Assembly: GCF_012516375.2 (NCBI RefSeq) | Contig: NZ_CP051204.2 | Span: forward strand, 496,001 to 560,000 | DNA from: Chitinophaga oryzae | Lineage (GTDB): Bacteria; Bacteroidota; Bacteroidia; Chitinophagales; Chitinophagaceae | DNA length: 64,000 nt | Reading direction: 5' to 3' | Shown here: one piece after another, positions 1,406-34,252 of the stretch | Layout of the letters: each line of letters begins with the position of its first letter | How positions within the stretch are numbered: the stretch's first letter is position 1 | Made by a program: the position numbers and the translations under genes | The notes under the pieces: generated by a model | The model's database searches: none | Seen by the model: only the letters and a program-made list of their open reading frames with translations | Told to the model about the DNA's origin: nothing

Positions 1406-3451
1406 ATGAATAAACTTGCGGGCGAAACCAGTCCTTATTTACTGCAGCACGCGCATAACCCGGTGGAGTGGTATCCCTGGGGAGAAGAGGCACTGGAGCG
1501 GGCCAGAAAGGAAGACAAGCCTATTCTGGTGAGTATCGGATACGCCGCTTGTCACTGGTGTCATGTGATGGAGCGGGAAAGCTTTGAAGATGCAGCTACT
1601 GCTGCCATCATGAATGAGCATTTCATCAACATCAAGATAGACCGGGAGGAACGGCCGGACCTGGACCACATTTATATGGATGCGGTGCAGGCGATGACCG
1701 GCGCCGGCGGATGGCCGCTGAACGTATTCCTGACACCGGATAAAAAACCGTTCTACGGCGGCACCTATTTCCCGCCGGTAAAGGCTTACAACCGGCCTTC
1801 GTGGAAGGATGTGCTGCTGTCGCTGGCGGATGCTTTCGCCAGTAAACGGGAAGACATAGAAACACAGGCTGATAACCTGACACAGCATATCGACCAGTCG
1901 AGCCAGTTCGGACTGGACGCCGGTGTCAACTTTAATATTCCGCGGGAAGAATTGTTTACCCGCCAGCAGTGTGACACCATCTGTGAAAATATGCTCCGGC
2001 AGGCGGATACTACCTGGGGTGGGTTTGGCCGCGCCCCCAAGTTCCCGCAAACCTTCACGATCGGGTATTTGCTGCGATACCATCATGCGTTTAAACATCC
2101 GGAAGCGTTGCAGCAGGCGTTGCTGTCGCTTGATAAAATGTTGCAGGGCGGCCTGTACGATCAGCTGGGTGGCGGTTTTGCCCGTTACTCGACTGACGAG
2201 AAGTGGCTGGCCCCTCATTTTGAGAAGATGTTGTATGACAATGCTTTGCTGATAGATGTGTTGTGTGATGCCTGGCAACTGACCCGCGGGGAGGCATACG
2301 CACAGACCATAAAGGATACCCTGGCTTTTATTACCCGGGAGATGACCTCGCCGGAGGGTGGTTTTTATGCCGCGCTGGATGCAGACTCTGAAGGCGTGGA
2401 AGGTAAGTTCTATACCTGGAGCAAAGCCGAAATACATCATGTACTGGGTGAACAGGCAGGCCCTTTCTGTGAGTTCTATGATGTAACAGCGCAGGGCAAC
2501 TGGGAAGAGCAGAATATATTATGGATACAGCAGCCGCTGGAGCAGTTTGCCGCGGAAAAAGGGTATGATCCGGCGGTACTGGGCGCCATGCTGAAGGGCT
2601 GTCGCGAAAAGTTGCTGGCGGTGAGGGGCACCCGGATACGCCCGGGATTGGACGACAAGATCCTGCTGGGCTGGAATGCCCTGATGGTGCATGCCTGCTG
2701 CCGGGCTTTCGCCACACTGGGAGATGAAGCTTACCGGCAGATGGCGGTGCGGAATATGGATTTCCTCCTCTCCCATTTCCGGCAAAACGACGGTACCCAG
2801 GCGTTTTATCATACCTGGAAAAACGGGCAGGCCAAGTACCCTGCTTTCCTGGACGATTATGCATGCCTGATACGGGCGCTGATTGCCCTGCAGGAAATTA
2901 CCGGGGATACCCGGTACCTGTACCAGGCGCACGATATCACGGCTTTTGTCAATGATCATTTCGGTGACGGCGGTCATCTTTTCTATTATACTATCGACGG
3001 ACAGGATGATGTGATTGTGCGGAAGAAAGAGGTGTACGACGGCGCAGTGCCCAGCGGTAACGCGCTGATGGCGCAGAACCTTTGGTATCTTTCCGTTGTT
3101 TTTGATAACAAAGACTGGGGAAACAAGGCCGTGGCCGCGTTATCCGGCATCGCCCAGACGGTGACCCGGTATCCGACTTCCTTCGGCGTGTGGGCGAGCC
3201 AGTTATTACAATTTGTAAAAGGTACCCCCGAAATAGCGGTTGTCGGAGAGGATTTCCGCGAACGGATGCAGGAGGCGGGCAACTGGTTTATCCCTTTCCG
3301 GATTTTACTCGGCTCCGGAAAAAATCAGCCGGAAATTCCGCTTTTGCAGGACAGATACCGGGAAAATGAAACATTAGTTTATTTATGCAAGGATTACCAT
3401 TGTATTAAGCCGGTGTTTTATATACAAGAAATTATTAATTTAATAGAATAA
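1406..3451 (+). CDS. Thioredoxin-domain protein of the DUF255/YyaL (SSP411-like) family
   Basis: A 681-residue cytosolic protein beginning [20 protein letters not shown], the signature start of the DUF255 family (bacterial YyaL, human SPATA20). An N-terminal thioredoxin-like domain carries CHWC at residues 49-52. The remainder resembles an (alpha/alpha)6-barrel of the N-acylglucosamine-epimerase type, with motifs such as [21 protein letters not shown] and [12 protein letters not shown]. The family's reaction is not established; a redox or sugar-related role is only inferred from the two folds. Length is as expected. The gene stands alone, with 219 bases upstream and about 200 downstream. Confidence 0.85.
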
Positions 3452-3585
3452 TTATGTAACTTGCCCGTTATAAGGGTAGTTTAGGTAAAATAAATGTTGG
3501 ACCGGTGATATAATAAAATGTTAAAAAATACGTTTAAATTAGTTACCGAACGGACGTATGTGGAATTGAAAAAGTTGTGTAAAAG

Positions 3586-9278: not shown

Positions 9279-9875
9279 ATGGCCTCAGTTAGCACCAGCT
9301 CGCTTTTAAAGCAACTCCGCTTACAGATTGTAGCAGCGCAGTATAAAGCCGAAGACCATTTCGGCGGCCAGTCTGCAGACGTATTGTCCTATACGCCCCA
9401 ACCGGGCACATGGAGCGCCCTTCAGTGCCTGGAACACCTGAATACTTACGGCCGGTTTTACCTGCCGGCATTGGATAAAGCGATTACAGCAGCGGAAAGA
9501 AATGGCAGCCAGCCCCTGGAGACATTTAAGAGCAGCTGGCTGGGCGCCTGGTTTACCAAACAGATGCAACCCACGCCGGACGGGAAGCTACGTTCCCGTA
9601 TGAAGTCACCCAAAGGGCATCTCCCGGCTGTTCAGCCCGATGCTGCGGGTGTGCTCAGTGAATTTATCCGGCAACAGGAAACCATGGAAGCCCTCATGGA
9701 CAGGGCTGCGAAAATCAACTTGCAAAAAGCGAAGGTGCCCACTTCCCTCTCCGGCTTTATCAAACTGTCTGTGGGCGATACTTTCGGCTTTATGACAGCG
9801 CATATCAACCGGCATGTGCTGCAGGCGGAAAACGTCATCCGCCGTTGCCCGAAACGGGTGGAAAAAGCAGTCTAG
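9279..9875 (+). CDS. DinB-like (DUF664/DinB_2) four-helix protein
   Basis: The protein of 198 residues has the DinB-superfamily pattern: PQPGTWSALQCLEHLNTYGRFY near the N-terminus, with a His (LEHL) in the metal-binding position, and a later TAHINRHVLQAENV giving two more His. In this superfamily three His bind a divalent metal, and members act as thiol-dependent transferases; substrates here are unknown. The start is the ATG at 9279, two codons inside an upstream GTG. The last four bases overlap the 3' end of uvrC on the opposite strand. Confidence 0.75.
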   Translation: MASVSTSSLLKQLRLQIVAAQYKAEDHFGGQSADVLSYTPQPGTWSALQCLEHLNTYGRFYLPALDKAITAAERNGSQPLETFKSSWLGAWFTKQMQPTPDGKLRSRMKSPKGHLPAVQPDAAGVLSEFIRQQETMEALMDRAAKINLQKAKVPTSLSGFIKLSVGDTFGFMTAHINRHVLQAENVIRRCPKRVEKAV

Positions 9876-11683
9876 CTTTGGGCTTTATGGAAATGTTCCC
9901 ATACCAGCCTGGCCTTGGCGCTGCCGATTTCCTGCGTGAGGTCTTCTTCCGAAAGCAGTTTTATTTTGGCGACAGAGCGGAATGTTTTCAGCAGTTGCGT
10001 GGCGGTTTGTTCACCAATTCCCTTGATGGTTTCCAGTTCGTTTTTAAAGGTGCCCTTGCTGCGTTTCTGACGGTGGAAAGTGATACCGAAACGGTGTACC
10101 TCGTCACGGATACGGCGTATCAGCTTCAGGCTCTCGCTGTTGAACGGCAGTTTGATACTTTCTGAGTCACCAGGGAAAAAGATCTCCTCCTCGTTTTTGG
10201 CAAGGCCTACGACGGTCATGCTGCCAATCAGGTCCAGTGCACGGATGCTTTCCATGGCTGATCCCAGCTGCCCTTTACCACCATCGATAATGACGAGCTG
10301 CGGCAACGGCTGCTGTTCTGCCAGCAGGCGGGAGTAACGCCGGTATACGACTTCCTTCATGGAAGCGAAATCGTTGATGCCTTCCACCGTTTTGATATTG
10401 AAATGGCGGTAGTCTTTTTTGGAGGCTACGCCGTCTTTAAACACCACACAGGCGGACACGGGGTAAGCGCCCTGGAAGTTGGAGTTATCGAAACACTCGA
10501 TGTGCTCCGGCAGCAACGGTAGTTCAAGATCGGCCTGCAACTGGTAGAGCACCTGCTTTCGCTCCATATCGCTCTTGCCTTCGAGGTGCAGAATTTTCTT
10601 CCGGTATAGTTCTTCCTTGAAATAATTCACGTTCTTCTCCGACAGTTCCAGGAGTTTCTTTTTATCCCCTCCTTTAGGGACGGTAATGGTAACATCGCTC
10701 TCTGGGTACTCCAGGGGGAAAGGCACTACGATTTCCGGGGTGATGCTTTTAAATACGTCCCGCAGATAGGCGATAGCGTAGCTGAGTACTTCTTCGTCTC
10801 CTTCTTCCAGTTGTTTTTCGAGGGTCACTGTCTTCGTATCGGAGATGGTGCCGTTGAGAATACGCAGATAGTTGACGTAGGCATGGTTGCCGTCGCTGAT
10901 GATGGAGAACACGTCCACGTTGCCCATGCGGGTGTTGACCACCGTGGACTTGGCGGAATAGTCTTCAAGGCTGGCGATTTTCTTGCGCATGATCTCCGCC
11001 TTTTCAAACTCCATGGCGGCGGCGTATTGCTGCATTTGTTCCTTGAACAGGTTGACCACGGGCGACAGGTTGCCTTTTAATACGTTTTTCACCTGCGCCA
11101 GTCCTTCCCGGTAGTCTTCTTCTGTCTGTAATCCTTCGCAGGGGCCTTTGCAGTTGCCGAGGTGGTATTCAAGGCAGACCTTGAATTTCCCTTTTTTGAT
11201 GTTCTGATCGCTGAGGTTGAGGTTACAGGTGCGCAGCGGAATATTGTAGCGGATCACTTCCAGTATTTCCCGGACACGGCCTACGGAGGTAAACGGTCCC
11301 AGGTAATCCGATCCGTCTTTGATCACGTTGCGGGTAAAGAACACCCTCGGGAACGGTTCATGTTTGATGACGATATAAGGATATGTTTTATCGTCTTTCA
11401 GGTTGATGTTGTACCGGGGCTGGAACTGTTTGATCAGGGAGTTCTCCAGCAGAAACGCGTCCTGCTCGGAGTTGACGATGGTAAACTCAATGTGGTGGAT
11501 ATGTTCCACCAGTTTACGGGTTTTGAAGTTATCGTGATACTTGACGAAATAGGAACTCACTCTTTTACGCAGGCTTTTGGCTTTGCCTACATACAGCAGG
11601 GTGCCGTCCTTATCGTAATATTTGTAGATGCCGGGATCAAGTGGTATGGTATGTGATATTTGCTGGAATTCTGCTGCTGTCAT
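9872..11683 (-). CDS. uvrC: Excinuclease ABC subunit UvrC
   Basis: UvrC makes both incisions in nucleotide excision repair after loading by UvrA/UvrB. Domains in order: GIY-YIG nuclease (residues 16-95, with PGIYKYY and LLYVGKAKSLRKR for the 3' cut), a UVR helical hairpin that binds UvrB (about 205-240, QYAAAMEFEKAEIMRKKI), the RNase-H-like 5' nuclease (about 385-530, with ECFDNSNFQG and LVIIDGGKGQLG), and a C-terminal helix-hairpin-helix (IKGIGEQTATQLLKTF). Length of 603 is normal. It follows the upstream lipoprotein gene by only 3 bases, so the two form one transcription unit. Confidence 0.96.
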   Translation of the reverse strand: MTAAEFQQISHTIPLDPGIYKYYDKDGTLLYVGKAKSLRKRVSSYFVKYHDNFKTRKLVEHIHHIEFTIVNSEQDAFLLENSLIKQFQPRYNINLKDDKTYPYIVIKHEPFPRVFFTRNVIKDGSDYLGPFTSVGRVREILEVIRYNIPLRTCNLNLSDQNIKKGKFKVCLEYHLGNCKGPCEGLQTEEDYREGLAQVKNVLKGNLSPVVNLFKEQMQQYAAAMEFEKAEIMRKKIASLEDYSAKSTVVNTRMGNVDVFSIISDGNHAYVNYLRILNGTISDTKTVTLEKQLEEGDEEVLSYAIAYLRDVFKSITPEIVVPFPLEYPESDVTITVPKGGDKKKLLELSEKNVNYFKEELYRKKILHLEGKSDMERKQVLYQLQADLELPLLPEHIECFDNSNFQGAYPVSACVVFKDGVASKKDYRHFNIKTVEGINDFASMKEVVYRRYSRLLAEQQPLPQLVIIDGGKGQLGSAMESIRALDLIGSMTVVGLAKNEEEIFFPGDSESIKLPFNSESLKLIRRIRDEVHRFGITFHRQKRSKGTFKNELETIKGIGEQTATQLLKTFRSVAKIKLLSEEDLTQEIGSAKARLVWEHFHKAQS

Positions 11684-27303: not shown

Positions 27304-29715
27304 ATGTGGCAACGCTTAGCCGGCTTTGTGCTAAAATTCCGATTACCGCTCCTACTCCTGTTACTGGTCGCCACCGGCGTAATGGCCTATTTTGCCTCCA
27401 AGGTGCAGATGTCTTACGACTACGTAGCGACCATACCGCATGATAACCCTAAATTCCTGGAATACCAGGAGTTTAAGAAGAAGTTTGGCGGTGATGGCAA
27501 TATGCTGGTGCTGGGCGTACAGACCGATAAATTTTTCCAGGCTGATTTTTTCCGGGATTACCTGCAGCTGAACCATGACCTGAAAAAAATCAATGCTGTA
27601 GAGAATATCCTGAGCGTGCCGCTGGCCATCAACCTGGTAAAGAATGACAGTACCCAGAAGCTGGAGGCCGGCCTGCTGTTTAAGGACAGTAGTTATACAC
27701 AACCGCAGATTGACAGTCTGGCGGGTGTTTTCAGGACTTTGCTGTTTTATAGGGGATTGCTTTACAATCCCGATTCGAAGGCCTATATGATGGCCATATA
27801 CGTGAATAAAGACGTTTTTAACTCTCCGAAGCGTACGGCCGTTGTAGCGGAAATCACCAAACTGGCCAAAGCTTTCGAAGACAAGCATCATACAGAAGTG
27901 CACCTGAGCGGGCTTCCGCTGATCCGTACGGTCATGGCCGTTAAAGTAGCGGATGAGCTGAAACTTTTTCTGAAGATCTCTTTCCTGCTGACGGGGCTGA
28001 TCCTGTTTTTATTTTTCCGCTCCTTTGGCGCCGTGCTGATGTCGATGGTGGTGGTAGCCATTGGCGTAGTCTGGTCGGTGGCCACGATCGTGCTGATGGG
28101 CTACAAGATCACGTTACTGACGGGATTGATTCCTTCCCTGATTGTGGTGATCGGTATTCCCAACTGCGTTTATTTCCTCAGCAAGTACCATACAGAATAT
28201 GCGCGTCACGGCAACAAGACCAAGGCGCTGGTGCGGATGATCCAGCGGATGGGCATTGTAACCCTGTTTACCAACCTGACCGCCGCCATTGGATTTGGGG
28301 TGTTCTGTTTTACCAACAGCGCTATTCTCAAAGAGTTTGGTGTGGTAGCGGGGCTGAACATCATGTTCATCTTCCTGATCTCTTTTATTTTCCTGCCGTC
28401 TGTATTGAGTTTCCTGCCACCGCCGAAAACCAAGCATATCAACTACCTGGAGAACGGTTTCCTGGGCAAAGTGCTGGATTTCCTGACCACGCTGGTGTTT
28501 AAGTACCGCAAGCCGGTATATTTCGTTACTGCGGCGTTGGTGATTGCGGCGCTGGTGGGCATGGGCCGGCTGAAGTCTGTGGGATATATGCTGGATGATA
28601 TTCCGAAGACCGACAAGCTGTATACCGACCTGAAGTTTTTTGAGCAGAATTTTAAAGGGGTGATGCCGCTGGAGATAGCGGTGGACACCAAACGCAAGAA
28701 CGGCGTCGTAAATCTGCAGACGCTTAACAAGCTGGACGAGCTGACGAAGCTGATAGCGGAGCAGCCTGATTTTGCACGGCCTTTGTCCGTTGTGGAAGGT
28801 ATCAAGTTTGCGAAACAGGCGTATTATAACGGGGACAGTTCCAACTACGCGGTGCCCAACTCGTTTGACCTGGGCTTCCTGGCGCCTTATCTCCGGATGA
28901 AATCGGCCAATACGGCCAGTGGGTCGGCGACTACCTTTTCCAGGCTGGTGGCTTCCTTTATGGACAGTACCAAGCAGGTGGCGCGCGTGAGTGTGAATAT
29001 GAAAGATGTGGGGTCGCAGCGGCTGCCGGTGCTGATGGATTCACTGGAGCCGAAGGTGACAGCGATTTTCGACACGGCCCATTACAAGGTGACCTTCACC
29101 GGTACCAGCGTTATCTTTCAGGAAGGTACGCGTTTCATTATCAACGGGTTGACAGAGAGTATCCTGTTGGCCTTTGTGTTGATCATGGTATGTATGCTTT
29201 ACCTGTTCCGTTCCTGGCGGATGCTGATCATTTCGCTGATCCCGAATATTATTCCGCTGGTGGTGACCGCGGGTGTAATGGGCTGGGTTGGCGTGGCGTT
29301 AAAACCTTCCACCGTATTGGTGTTCAGTGTGGCCCTGGGTATAGCCATCGACGTTACTATCCGTTTCCTGGTGAATTTCAAGCAGGAGTTGCCGCGGCAT
29401 AACCTGGATATATCCGCTACCGTGAAGCAGACGATTCATGAAACGGGGCTGAGTATTATTTATACCTCGATGATCCTGTTTGCCGGGTTTATGATTTTCA
29501 GTTTCTCCGAATTCGGGGGTACTAAGGCATTGGGGTGGCTGACGTCTCTGACGCTGGTGGTAGCAATGATCACCAACCTGACGATCCTGCCGGCTTTGTT
29601 GTTGTGGATGGAAAAAGCGTTGTTAAAGAAGGCGCGAAAGAAGGAATTGTGGAAACCGCTGGATGAGGAGGAGGACATTGAGATGTCCAAACTGGGAGTA
29701 GACGATACGGAATAA
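27304..29715 (+). CDS. MMPL/RND-superfamily membrane transporter
   Basis: The 803-residue protein has the RND layout: one membrane helix near the start, a large periplasmic loop (about residues 40-225), five more helices (about 228-375), then the same pattern repeated (helix about 405-425, loop to about 635, five helices to about 780). FFRSFGAVLMSMVVVAIGVVWS and ALGIAIDVTIRFLVNFKQ match the MMPL / sterol-sensing-like class rather than the AcrB drug pumps. Cargo may be a lipid or hopanoid-like molecule, but this is inference. No membrane-fusion or outer-membrane partner is adjacent. A weak -7 box (TACCTTTA) lies at 27269. Confidence 0.85.
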   Translation: MWQRLAGFVLKFRLPLLLLLLVATGVMAYFASKVQMSYDYVATIPHDNPKFLEYQEFKKKFGGDGNMLVLGVQTDKFFQADFFRDYLQLNHDLKKINAVENILSVPLAINLVKNDSTQKLEAGLLFKDSSYTQPQIDSLAGVFRTLLFYRGLLYNPDSKAYMMAIYVNKDVFNSPKRTAVVAEITKLAKAFEDKHHTEVHLSGLPLIRTVMAVKVADELKLFLKISFLLTGLILFLFFRSFGAVLMSMVVVAIGVVWSVATIVLMGYKITLLTGLIPSLIVVIGIPNCVYFLSKYHTEYARHGNKTKALVRMIQRMGIVTLFTNLTAAIGFGVFCFTNSAILKEFGVVAGLNIMFIFLISFIFLPSVLSFLPPPKTKHINYLENGFLGKVLDFLTTLVFKYRKPVYFVTAALVIAALVGMGRLKSVGYMLDDIPKTDKLYTDLKFFEQNFKGVMPLEIAVDTKRKNGVVNLQTLNKLDELTKLIAEQPDFARPLSVVEGIKFAKQAYYNGDSSNYAVPNSFDLGFLAPYLRMKSANTASGSATTFSRLVASFMDSTKQVARVSVNMKDVGSQRLPVLMDSLEPKVTAIFDTAHYKVTFTGTSVIFQEGTRFIINGLTESILLAFVLIMVCMLYLFRSWRMLIISLIPNIIPLVVTAGVMGWVGVALKPSTVLVFSVALGIAIDVTIRFLVNFKQELPRHNLDISATVKQTIHETGLSIIYTSMILFAGFMIFSFSEFGGTKALGWLTSLTLVVAMITNLTILPALLLWMEKALLKKARKKELWKPLDEEEDIEMSKLGVDDTE

Positions 29716-29733
29716 TTTTTTTTAATATAAAGT

Positions 29734-29790
29734 GCAAAGCAGCAGGGGGCAGGGTTTATAAAGCTGGCGTCCCTGCTGCTTTGCGCTTTT
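29734..29790 (+). terminator. Terminator of the MMPL transporter gene
   Basis: Perfect 14-bp arms 29734-29747 and 29771-29784 (GCAAAGCAGCAGGG) enclose a 23-base loop, followed by GCTTTTTGCGC. Confidence 0.75.
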
Positions 29791-29958
29791 TGCGCTCTAT
29801 GCTAAACAAATTCTTTTATTTAGCTAAAATGGACAAAAAAAGGCCTTAAAATAATCTAGTGGGCAGCATTCAAATACCCTTATCGCCGCTTGTATAAAAG
29901 CTGTGTATATACCGGATAAAAAATAAGAGGTTTATAATGCCATTCTAACCACTAGTTC

Positions 29959-30663
29959 ATGAAAAACAAGTACTTAAAAGGTGCTCATTTATCTGAGCGC
30001 AAGTTTAAGGAGATCCTGCGGCTGTTCGCCGATGATCTCACTGCGACGCAGATCGCGGATATCAGCGGAGTAAGCAGAGTAACGATTAACAGTTACCTGA
30101 AAAAGCTTAGAAACCAGATAGCCCGTTTTTGCGAGGCGCAGCATCCAGTGCCGGTTCCGGTCGTAGCCTACGACAACCGGCAGGTTGAGACCCATACAGA
30201 CCACGACAGCGACACGCTGGTGGCTGTCAAATCCGAAGTAGACCGTCTTGTCAAGCCGGTTATTTTTGGTATCTGCAGAATTGCTGACCGGTTACACACC
30301 GAAATTTTACCTGATGTAAGCAGACCTATGATCCATGCCGCCACGCGCGGCCGTTCCGTGCTGGAAACGCTGGATACCACAGAGCGTTTGCGTCGGTTTA
30401 ACGGGGTAGTGGACCTCGGCCAGTACCGTTTGTACAGGTTGGGTAATTCAACGACAGATACCGTTAACGGCGGTCCGTTAATGGATGATGTAGATGCATT
30501 CTGGGGGCTTACCAAGCACCGCCTGGCCAAGTTCAAGGGATTGAACCGGAATACGGCTTACCTGCATCTGAAAGAATGTGAATACAGGTTCAATCATCGT
30601 AATGAAGACCTGTACAGTGTGTTGCTGGAATTGTTAAAAAACTACCCGCTCACCCTGTCTTGA
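29959..30663 (+). CDS. Intact but catalytically degenerate IS1595-type transposase (possibly domesticated)
   Basis: The 234-residue protein begins KNKYLKGAHLSERKFKEIL, has a helix-turn-helix at about residues 28-50 (LTATQIADISGVSRVTINSYL), and ends with the IS1595/ISXO2-family block AFWGLTKHRLAKFKGL (180-195) and LHLKECEYRFNHRNEDLY (202-219). The active-site parts are lost. Where the family has a DES-YFG motif with a basic RGRG loop there is only DTLVAVKSEVDRLVKPVIFG. The DGW motif before the NGLV-like strand is replaced by DTTERLRRFNGVV. The last acidic position (usually ENFWG) reads VDAFWG. The frame is nonetheless uninterrupted. No family-type terminal repeats flank it. A DNA-binding role is inferred. 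Confidence 0.75.
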   Translation: MKNKYLKGAHLSERKFKEILRLFADDLTATQIADISGVSRVTINSYLKKLRNQIARFCEAQHPVPVPVVAYDNRQVETHTDHDSDTLVAVKSEVDRLVKPVIFGICRIADRLHTEILPDVSRPMIHAATRGRSVLETLDTTERLRRFNGVVDLGQYRLYRLGNSTTDTVNGGPLMDDVDAFWGLTKHRLAKFKGLNRNTAYLHLKECEYRFNHRNEDLYSVLLELLKNYPLTLS

Positions 30664-31150
30664 TAACTTATTTTGTCCCATCAACCGGTGGGACAACATT
30701 TATTTCGATTTAGATTTTGTTTGATAAAGTGCAAGTGGTAATCTTGCCGCTTGTTTATTTTCATATATATACACATTTTTTTAAACCATAATAAGTTAAC
30801 ATGGTGTTAAAAAAATGTTATCCGATTGTTATCGCCAACTTTTCCAGCTTAATTTTTTGTTAATAAAAACTATATTTACAGCTGGTTGAAAATTTGTTAA
30901 GGAAACTGCTTATGGGAAAGAAGTTGACTACTTCTTTGTGCGATTTATTGAATAAATCGCAAGAGAAATAGTCGATTTTTATGAATATGTTACTGTATCA
31001 CACGTAATCACACCTGCTGGCTTTAGTTCTCCACGCATTTATATCAACTTTTATTTTTTACGACACGGAAACCAAATGAATTGAGGCGAAAGGCCTTGAT
31101 ATAGATTAGTATTTTTTGAAGGTTAAAAACTAGGAAACAAAATCATGCTT
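30664..31150 (+). promoter_or_regulatory. Leader region of the first susC gene with two perfect hairpins
   Basis: This 487-base gap starts with a terminator-like hairpin (30673-30680 with 30689-30696, TTGTCCCA) for the transposase-like gene. A possible -7 box TATATTTA lies at 30871-30878. Two adjacent perfect inverted repeats follow: AAAGAAGT (30917-30924 with 30930-30937) and GCGATTTAT (30940-30948 with 30952-30960). They could be operator sites or leader RNA helices. The rest, to the ATG at 31151, is AT-rich and holds no gene. Confidence 0.5.
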
Positions 31151-34100
31151 ATGAGGAAAGTATTATTTCTCCTCCTGGCCGTGCTATGCGTGGTCGGCCA
31201 GGCTTTTGCGCAAAGTCGCAACGTAACGGGGAAAGTTACCGACGGGAAAGACGGATCTCCTATACCTGGCGCAACCATCCAGGTAAAAGGTACCACCAGA
31301 GGTACTGCCACCACCCCCGACGGCACATTCAGCCTGCAGGTATCTGCAAACGATGTATTAGTAGTTTCATTTGTTGGCTATGAAAAGAAAGAAGTGCCGG
31401 TAGGCGAAGCCGCCGCACTTAAAATTTCACTGTCTGCCGACTCCAAAAACCTGGACGAAGTAGTAGTAACCGGCTACACCCTGGAGAAAAAAGTAAACTC
31501 CACCATCGCCGCTTCTACTATCACCGGCGCCAAGGTGAACAACATCTCCCTGCCTGATGTAAACCAGATGCTGCAGGGTAATGCGCCTGGTATCTCCGTG
31601 TCTACCAACTCCGGCCAGCCCGGCTCCAAAACGGAAGTAAGGATCCGCGGTATCGGTTCTATCTCCGCCAGCAACAGCCCGCTGTATGTACTGGACGGTA
31701 TCATTATGTCCTCCGGTGATTTTACGCAGAATACACCTTCCCAGGACATTCTTTCCAACCTGAACCCTGCCGACATCGAAAACATTACCATCCTGAAAGA
31801 CGCATCTGCTACTGCGCTCTACGGTTCCCGCGGTTCCAACGGCGTGGTGGTGATCACTACCAAAACCGGTAAAAAAGGCCAGAGCAGAATCAACTTCAAC
31901 GGTAAATTCGGTTTCCAGAACCTCGCTAAGAGCATCCCGATGATGAATGCTACCGAGTTGCTCGCGTATCAGCGCGAAGGGCTGAGAAATGCCGTTAATG
32001 CTGATGGCAGCAGAAAATACTCCGACGCGAACATTCTGAAATACCGCCCCGATCACCTGGCTGACTACAATACAGACTGGATGGACTTGGCTTTCCGCAC
32101 CGGTAAAACCCAGGCTTATGGCGTTAATGCCGGCGGTGGTAACGAAAAAACCACTTTCTATGCCTCCGGCGACTACTTTAAGCAGGATGGTATCCTGATT
32201 GGTAGCGGTTTTAGCCGTTACTCCGGCCGTTTGAACGTAGATCATAAATTCAACGATAAATTCGACCTGAGCGTAAAAATGAGCGGTACCTATACCGATC
32301 AGCTGAGCGCTGGTGCAGGTAACAGCTACTCTTCTCCGCTGATGGGCGCTCTCACACAGGTTCCCTGGATTCCGGCGAAAGATGAGAATGGCAACCCTTA
32401 CATCGGTTATGTAGGCGGCCAGCCTGGTTCTCCTACCTGGTCCGGTGTTGCTGACATCCCGGATGCGTGGCGTCCAACCCTGCAGGGGGGTAACTTCCTG
32501 CACACTGTTGCCAATAACTACCGCAAAAACAACAATACCCAGACTATCTTCAACGCAGCGCTGGGTTACAATATCATCGAAGGCCTGCGTTTTGTTGTAA
32601 AAGGTAACGCAGAGCTCACTGGCATCCGTGAAAAACAATGGACCGCCCCGAACTCCTACGATGGCCGTAACTATGGTGGTTACCTGTACAACGTAAACTC
32701 CAACATGGCGCTGTACACTACCCAACAATTGCTGACTTATAACTTCAGCATCAACAAAGACCATAGCTTCCGCCTGCTGGCCGGTAACGAATATTCTTAC
32801 CAGAACAGGTCTTACACGATCGCTGCGAAAAACGGTTTCCCCGGCAACCAGCTGCAGGTGCCGGATGTGGGCGCCAACCTGTTTGACGGCGGTGGTAATG
32901 AAAGATCTTACGCATTCCAGGGCCTCATCGGTAAAGCGGACTACGATTACAAATCCAAGTATTTCCTGAGCGCCAGCTTCAGAAGAGACGGTTCTTCCCG
33001 TTTCCCTAAAGACGCCCGCTATGGTAACTTCTACTCTGTGGGTGCTGCATGGCGTATTACAGAAGAAGAATTTGCCAAAAACATTTCCTGGTTGAACGAC
33101 CTGAAACTGCGTTCCAGCTATGGTGTAATGGGTAACGCAGAAGGACTGGGTTTATATCCCGACTATCCTTTCCGCGGCCTGTACAGCCTCTCCGGTGCTT
33201 ATCTCGGCGAAACAGCTGCATTTGCCAACCAGCCTGGTAACCCTAACCTGAGCTGGGAAAAACAAAACCTGTTCGACATCGGACTGGACTTCAGCGTGCT
33301 GAATCGTCGTGTATACGGTAGCGTTGGATTCTACGACAAACGCTCCTCTGCACTGCTGATGGAACTGCCACTGTCTATGACCACCGGTTTTGAAACGATC
33401 AACATGAACGTTGGTAAAATGCTGAACCAGGGTTTTGAAATCACCATTGGCGGTGTTCCGGTGGCGACTAAAAACTTCACGTGGACTTCTGACCTGAACT
33501 TCGCTACACTGCGCAACAGAGTACTGGACCTGGGCGGTCAGCAGGCTATTCCTTCCGGTACCAGACAGCGTATCGAAGTGGGCCACACTTTTGGTTCTTG
33601 GTATATGCCGGTATGGTATGGTGTAGATCCTCAGACAGGCGCACCACTGTGGGTAGGCAACGACGGCAAACCTACTACCAGCTATACAGAAGCGCAGAAC
33701 AACAGGCAATATGTAGGTCAGGCACTGCCTAAGATCACCGGCGGCTGGACCAACAAAATCAACTACAAGGAGTTTGACCTGTCTATGCTGATCACTTTCA
33801 GCTCCGGCAACAAGGCTTACAACTCCAACCGTGCTAACCTGGAAAGCGATGGCGCTAACTCCCGCAACCAGGCAAAAGACGCGCTGGACCACTGGCAGAA
33901 ACCTGGTGACGTGTCAGACAGACCTAAAGTAGTATTTGGTGGCAGCGGTGCAAACCAGTCTTCTACCCGTTACCTGGAAGATGTGTCTTACGCCAGAATC
34001 AGGAACCTGACCCTGGGTTATACACTGCCTAAAAAACTGCTGGGTAATATGAAGCTGCAATCACTGCGTGTATATGCACAGGCAGAAAACCTGTACACGC

Positions 34101-34252
34101 TGACCAGCTACAAAGGATGGGACCCGGATATCAACACTAACCCGCTTCCTCCAACCAGTACAGCTTCTACGGCTACTACCAACGCCGGTACTGATTTCTA
34201 TCGTTATCCTACTTCACGTGTGTTCACATTTGGTATCAGTGTAGGATTGTAA
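31151..34252 (+). CDS. SusC/RagA-type TonB-linked outer-membrane protein (cassette 1)
   Basis: A 1033-residue TonB-dependent transporter of the SusC class. It has a signal peptide (to about residue 20, FAQ), a CarboxypepD_reg-like beta-sandwich (NVTGKVTDGKDGSPIPGATIQVKGTTRGT), a plug domain with ALYGSRGSNGVVVITTK, and a 22-strand barrel ending in an aromatic-rich strand (FTFGISVGL). The substrate cannot be read. ATG at 31151 is chosen over 31145 because all four susC genes here share the context GCTTATG. It is paired with the SusD gene 36 bases downstream. Confidence 0.95.
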   Translation: MRKVLFLLLAVLCVVGQAFAQSRNVTGKVTDGKDGSPIPGATIQVKGTTRGTATTPDGTFSLQVSANDVLVVSFVGYEKKEVPVGEAAALKISLSADSKNLDEVVVTGYTLEKKVNSTIAASTITGAKVNNISLPDVNQMLQGNAPGISVSTNSGQPGSKTEVRIRGIGSISASNSPLYVLDGIIMSSGDFTQNTPSQDILSNLNPADIENITILKDASATALYGSRGSNGVVVITTKTGKKGQSRINFNGKFGFQNLAKSIPMMNATELLAYQREGLRNAVNADGSRKYSDANILKYRPDHLADYNTDWMDLAFRTGKTQAYGVNAGGGNEKTTFYASGDYFKQDGILIGSGFSRYSGRLNVDHKFNDKFDLSVKMSGTYTDQLSAGAGNSYSSPLMGALTQVPWIPAKDENGNPYIGYVGGQPGSPTWSGVADIPDAWRPTLQGGNFLHTVANNYRKNNNTQTIFNAALGYNIIEGLRFVVKGNAELTGIREKQWTAPNSYDGRNYGGYLYNVNSNMALYTTQQLLTYNFSINKDHSFRLLAGNEYSYQNRSYTIAAKNGFPGNQLQVPDVGANLFDGGGNERSYAFQGLIGKADYDYKSKYFLSASFRRDGSSRFPKDARYGNFYSVGAAWRITEEEFAKNISWLNDLKLRSSYGVMGNAEGLGLYPDYPFRGLYSLSGAYLGETAAFANQPGNPNLSWEKQNLFDIGLDFSVLNRRVYGSVGFYDKRSSALLMELPLSMTTGFETINMNVGKMLNQGFEITIGGVPVATKNFTWTSDLNFATLRNRVLDLGGQQAIPSGTRQRIEVGHTFGSWYMPVWYGVDPQTGAPLWVGNDGKPTTSYTEAQNNRQYVGQALPKITGGWTNKINYKEFDLSMLITFSSGNKAYNSNRANLESDGANSRNQAKDALDHWQKPGDVSDRPKVVFGGSGANQSSTRYLEDVSYARIRNLTLGYTLPKKLLGNMKLQSLRVYAQAENLYTLTSYKGWDPDINTNPLPPTSTASTATTNAGTDFYRYPTSRVFTFGISVGL

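Follow-up and report, generated by a model that had tools for sequence, protein, structure and literature searches.

A catalytically dead IS1595-type transposase, probably domesticated, is retained throughout the genus Chitinophaga

Introduction

To our knowledge, clear cases in which a bacterial DDE transposase has been turned into a host gene seem few. The TldR proteins originated from the transposon protein TnpB. They are RNA-guided transcription factors (PMC13418256); they are alike to the case described here in that a transposon nuclease was turned into a transcription regulator, and unlike it in that they are RNA-guided and belong to an unrelated protein family. The Merlin transposase of Perkinsela, which is preserved but inactive, comes from a eukaryotic relative of IS1595, and its domestication was offered as a possibility (PMC8101967). 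It too is a retained transposase of the superfamily with a proposed domestication; the host is a eukaryote, however, and the domestication is not reported to have been traced genus-wide. Ner/SfsB is a mobile-element DNA-binding protein that was adopted as a host transcription factor, although it is a relative of phage repressors rather than of DDE transposases (PMC8987985). The titles and abstract openings that we surveyed, in a collection with few subscription papers, contain no domesticated bacterial IS1595 transposase and nothing on the sRNA-like element described below.

Here we analyse a gene in a 64,000-nucleotide stretch of the Chitinophaga oryzae genome (hereafter the window, meaning the whole stretch). 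Its product resembles the IS1595 transposases (NF033547, PF12762) in length, in its N-terminal helix-turn-helix (HTH) and in a C-terminal FWG...KF.G..T.YLH.KE.EFR block. It differs from them in that the protein is dead, lacking the D-D-E triad, in that no terminal inverted repeat (TIR) was recognised by the scans described below, and in that the gene occupies one syntenic place per genome.

Results

A complete gene descended from IS1595

The features of the locus are the following.

27304..29715, plus strand: gene for an MMPL-family transporter, the upstream neighbour in 20/20 Chitinophaga loci examined
29843..29958, plus strand: conserved upstream block AATAATCTAGTGG...CATTCA...CCGCTTGTATAAAA...GAGGTTTATAATGCCATTCTAAC, a candidate promoter/operator
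29959..30663, plus strand: gene for the dead, probably domesticated IS1595-type transposase, 234 aa, ATG to TGA
Parts of its protein: HTH, residues 1-60; low-confidence linker, about 67-97; remnant core, about 99-176; C-terminal helices, 177-234
30707..30725, plus strand: conserved 19-mer GATTTAGATTTTGTTTGAT behind the gene (genus consensus GATTTAGATTTTGGTTGAT; one base differs in the window)
30731..30754, plus strand: terminator-like hairpin that follows the 19-mer; of its 10 pairs, 4 show compensatory changes
31145..34252, plus strand: SusC (TonB-dependent receptor) gene in the slot behind the gene, the downstream neighbour

An earlier note, made from the letters of the window, had described a complete frame at 29959-30663, and the frame is indeed there. 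The IS1595 model NF033547 aligns with residues 10-214 (E 1.7e-13) at 50.9 bits, where the curated cut-off is 75, and PF12762 (DDE_Tnp_IS1595) gave no match in this protein at E up to 1. Pfam reports HTH-type families only: HTH_23 scored above its cut-off, and the GerE model fell slightly short (22.2 bits versus a cut-off of 23.5). P0095, an active-type relative, is 44% identical to the window protein. In the organism's own 8.36 Mb genome (G000) a protein search found a single copy of the gene, and a search with PF12762 found zero transposases. We do not count the protein as a member of the active IS1595 family, since a test for the triad found it absent (the protein moreover scores below or is missing from both curated models and has one copy in its genome); descent from IS1595 stands. 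Identity as a LuxR/GerE-type regulator was likewise rejected, since GerE is under its cut-off, no sensory or receiver domain is reported, and the structural likeness covers about 40 HTH residues. Database names of orthologues vary among IS1595 family transposase, LuxR-type regulator and hypothetical protein, and the gene could therefore be lost when mobile elements are filtered out.

The AlphaFold2 model of the window protein (mean pLDDT 75.6, pTM 0.75) has a confident HTH bundle, a core of four short strands and, at the C-terminus, three helices, with residues 67-97 at low confidence. Foldseek returned nothing for this protein at E <= 0.001; partial matches over about 40 residues were LuxR/GerE-type HTH domains. 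The predicted structure of an active relative was too poor for comparison (mean pLDDT 54.9).

Loss of the catalytic centre

The replacement of three acidic active-site regions, as the earlier note had it, was confirmed by alignment with P0095. The VEVDESYFG of P0095 is gone, and the corresponding place lies in a variable linker; HSDGW has become TTERL (D to E) and NGIEGFWG has become DDVDAFWG (E to D), such that the window protein carries Y, E and D at the three catalytic columns. Among the best 120 of 812 relatives, the triad was found in 0/119 (the remaining one is the active-type P0095 itself), as compared with 120/120 of the active-type relatives listed (120 of 8000 scored, with P0095 as query and included).

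We then considered 160 dead copies, drawn from 118 listed proteins and from 42 loci, the window among them; the two sets overlap in part, and most copies are from Chitinophaga. The column of the first catalytic aspartate (D1) holds an acid in 0% of these copies, and the second and third positions hold one in 71% and 95%, mostly through changes of D to E and of E to D. Within residues 61-98 no column reached an acid in at least 80% of the 160 copies (top values 65% and 55%), and D1 therefore has no conserved substitute there. A relocation of the catalytic acids was rejected: no alternative placement of the three was found, and no conserved acid takes over from D1. Acids at positions 18, 25, 176, 177 and 217 occur in 96-100% of dead versus 0-43% of active copies. 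Isolated triad losses are found also among active-type relatives (5/92 in one set), and L137 carries D-D-K.

Distribution and descent

Orthologues are far from confined to this strain. The gene is present in 79/79 Chitinophaga genomes, at one place in each (76/76 when only good-quality genomes are counted), and 77 of the 79 give an uninterrupted full-length match, which argues that the open frame is not due to chance. The exceptions are G064 (65% complete, two TGA codons) and G027, where the match is split in two. In an even sample of 294 genomes of the family, 67 had a match, 43 of them strong (E <= 1.4e-43; spread over 14 genera by our tally) and 24 weaker; since 227 had none, the function is not required family-wide. 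The 21 copies at loci of 20 non-Chitinophaga genomes all lack the triad, and copy number outside Chitinophaga sometimes exceeds one (two in G116, two in L094).

In a quick tree of 61 rows, which contains several long branches, a single branch (SH-aLRT 92) separates the 41 dead Chitinophagaceae rows from all others; among these 41, Chitinophaga and the other genera make up two sub-groups. In the other genera the gene lies immediately behind an E1-dehydrogenase gene in 13/20 loci. The history may have been one inactivation followed by relocation, or two descents from a single dead element.

Of 395 genomes of the class, 18 had a match. Three matching genomes of genus g239, which belongs to another family (L134-L136), have a dead copy that the tree places on its active side, and its 16 nearest database relatives (P0240-P0255) all lack D-D-E. 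Together these are a second, separately placed dead IS1595-like lineage in another family of the class. A gene that we take to be acyl-CoA carboxylase-like adjoins the dead copy in all three g239 genomes.

Purifying selection on the protein

We estimated dN/dS by the Nei-Gojobori method for 30 Chitinophaga orthologues. From the 123/435 pairs with dS of 0.1-1.2, pairs that are not independent of one another, the median was 0.072 overall, and by part of the protein 0.020 (residues 1-60), 0.222 (61-98), 0.066 (99-176) and 0.036 (177-234). For ten loci the median was 0.075 for the dead gene and 0.054, 0.060 and 0.067 for the neighbouring MMPL gene and for two further neighbours, presumably RecO and LpxH-like, respectively. 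A value near 1 was thus not found; the median of 0.07 is like that of the three neighbours. The gene was therefore retained vertically, under purifying selection, once catalysis had been lost, as expected of a domesticated transposase.

The upstream block and the search for element ends

Approximately 115 bp 5' of the ATG are conserved across 21 aligned Chitinophaga loci, with 38 invariant columns in 20 sequences (the ATG accounting for three), and parts of the block can be made out in further genera, in which the gene sits elsewhere. RNA folding predicted no pairs in the block, and a structured RNA leader was rejected on that ground. With up to 3 mismatches allowed, the motif of the block matched the own genome once. 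Because of this lack of RNA structure and the single genomic occurrence, the block is likely a promoter/operator; because it is found once, no regulon is visible. Behind the MMPL gene lies an inverted repeat at 29729-29789 (AGCAGCAGGG...CCCTGCTGCT), probably the terminator of that gene, for which Rfam gave a sub-threshold microRNA match only.

TIR-like pairs were found in 50/50 active loci examined (80 had been fetched), and 48 were used to build a matrix. Applied to the 160 bp upstream of the window gene, the matrix gave no significant match: 86/100 shuffles scored as high with its long form and 67/100 with its short form. Most of the 41 copies scanned were within the shuffles, and for L075 and L084 0/100 shuffles scored as high with the short matrix. 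Single-TIR matches up- and downstream of the window gene were within simple shuffles (48 to 200 of 200 as high). A recurring ACTAG core is only suggestive as a hint of a remnant of the element's ends.

A SusC neighbour of changing identity

Four SusC/SusD pairs follow the gene in the same direction, as had been claimed. A same-strand SusC-like gene comes next in 79/79 Chitinophaga genomes, a count made up of 20/20 loci (in L071 the SusC frame is broken), 58/58 further genomes (by tblastn, for SusC only) and the window. The idea of a conserved SusCD context held as to the constant SusC neighbour in Chitinophaga; it is limited in that the occupant lineages differ and that only 4/21 copies outside the genus have SusC next to them. 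With at least 150 Plug-domain genes in the own genome (150/217 candidates scored), the chance of SusC adjacency is a few percent, with the number of genes assumed. Note that one inherited ancestral arrangement would also explain the constant neighbour.

The SusCs in the slot belong to several lineages. In a quick tree of 38 rows (one broken-SusC locus was omitted, and long branches were warned of), at least 6 changes of the slot label fall on starred branches. The slot SusCs of other loci are from 90% down to about 26% identical to that of the window, as compared with 66-99% for the MMPL neighbour. The slot at 31145-52368 (loci L059-L078) is a turnover slot, occupied by SusC lineages that differ between species. 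A terminator-like hairpin stands between the dead gene and susC. Six of the 17/21 copies outside Chitinophaga that have no SusC next to them were covered by a Pfam scan, and their neighbours were unrelated transporters, regulators or enzymes; because downstream neighbours vary in this way, no common target is implied. It is plausible that the dead gene regulates SusCD in Chitinophaga, but not generally, and the putative binding of its protein to the susC leaders would not be required by these data. In L094 (genus g8), two dead copies (2953-3504 and 9347-9994) flank a SusC/SusD pair.

A 3' element shared with an sRNA-like gene

The 19-mer, with one variable base allowed, lies behind the gene in 18/20 loci, 51/58 further genomes and the window (70/79 in all), and is absent behind the gene in 20/20 loci of other genera. 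The hairpin was aligned from 18 sequences that had been picked for holding the 19-mer. The exact 19-mer occurs in 79/79 Chitinophaga genomes, 71 of which contain two or more by our own count, and the reversed pattern occurs 0 times. Of the 31 loci of the 19-mer that are listed, 18 are free-standing elements whose ends look like a promoter and a terminator, 12 are behind the dead gene and one (L130) is neither. One such locus of the own genome (L099; C1:1185519-1185626, minus strand) is a free-standing sRNA-like gene with the exact 19-mer before a terminator-like hairpin; it has no match in Rfam.

Of these free-standing elements 17 were aligned, and a covariance model was made. Under strict filters it matched 4/195 sampled genomes of the family, all Chitinophaga, and had no match in any other of the 101 genera in that sample. 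In the own genome the model has a weaker second match, at 39 bits, which falls behind the dead gene; that stretch was unmatched in the other three matching genomes. Complementarity to the putative sRNA was found at 18 places in the own genome (at most 2 mismatches, copies of the element included) versus 9 control matches.

Discussion

We consider it the best explanation, with a probability of roughly 0.65, that an IS1595-type transposase has been domesticated here, catalytically dead and retained as a putative HTH DNA-binding transcription regulator. The claim that the open frame reflects selection for another job is supported. In the history that distribution, tree, synteny and dN/dS support, a copy lost its DDE centre and became a retained host gene at an early point in the line leading to Chitinophaga and its relatives among the Chitinophagaceae; the strand with the first catalytic aspartate appears to have been lost, and the N-terminal HTH and the C-terminal helical block, both retained, are the parts under strongest constraint. 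The protein, which would no longer be able to cut DNA, is most likely a sequence-specific DNA-binding transcription regulator; the own genome has no PF12762 transposase for it to repress. It would probably regulate its own gene through the conserved block 5' of the ATG, and its targets in Chitinophaga may include the neighbouring SusCD locus.

The gene might instead be domesticated in an architectural capacity, its product being a nucleoid-associated or site-marking protein that, for example, organises the SusCD slot and is not a classical transcription factor. Presence in 79/79 members of the genus and the strong constraint on the HTH and C-terminal helices would suit such a protein, as would a slot whose SusC label changes at least 6 times while the gene and its upstream neighbour stay, and an upstream motif without a further copy. 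Given, however, that 17/21 copies outside Chitinophaga have no SusC neighbour and that the conserved upstream block looks promoter-proximal, we think this rather unlikely. We are similarly doubtful of a bolder proposal, that the dead transposase is a dedicated regulator or organiser of the exchangeable SusCD slot, with regulator and leader fixed while cassettes alternate, and that its mRNA also yields a 3'-UTR sRNA sharing its seed with the free-standing, genus-specific sRNA. Were selection mainly for the 3' sRNA-like element and the protein secondary, one could account for the 19-mer and hairpin conserved behind the gene and for the 19-mer in the separate sRNA-like gene of the genus. But the 19-mer is missing behind the gene in 9/79 Chitinophaga genomes and in 20/20 loci of other genera, where the protein is kept, and dN/dS shows selection on the protein, making this account highly improbable.

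A still-mobile IS1595 copy, or one that died so recently that its frame is merely still open, has next to no probability. Residual similarity extends across most of the length and several orthologues carry the database name IS1595 family transposase; active or recently dead status is nevertheless contradicted by one place each in 79/79 genomes, synteny in 20/20 loci, loss of the triad in 119 relatives and a dN/dS of 0.07, and no PF12762 transposase is present in the genome. Nor does a nuclease or integrase with an alternative active site, built from D152, E206 and E208 or from the D176/D177/D179 cluster, seem at all probable to us. Positions 152, 206 and 208 are acids in 97-100% of the 160 dead copies, but they are so in all 120 active copies too, where they stand equally invariant beside the real triad. 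In the cluster, 97% of the dead copies have an acid at 176, 96% at 177 and 95% at 179, where active copies have E at 179 but an acid at 176 or 177 in 0%; against any such site, D1 has no conserved acid replacement, and the model is of low confidence there.

The putative regulator descended from IS1595 occurs throughout the genus and in several further genera, and abundant active relatives are available. The loss of catalysis and the gain of a new role should therefore be traceable residue by residue. Moreover, the constant presence of a SusC neighbour whose identity changes makes the hypothesis of a regulator tied to this slot directly testable.
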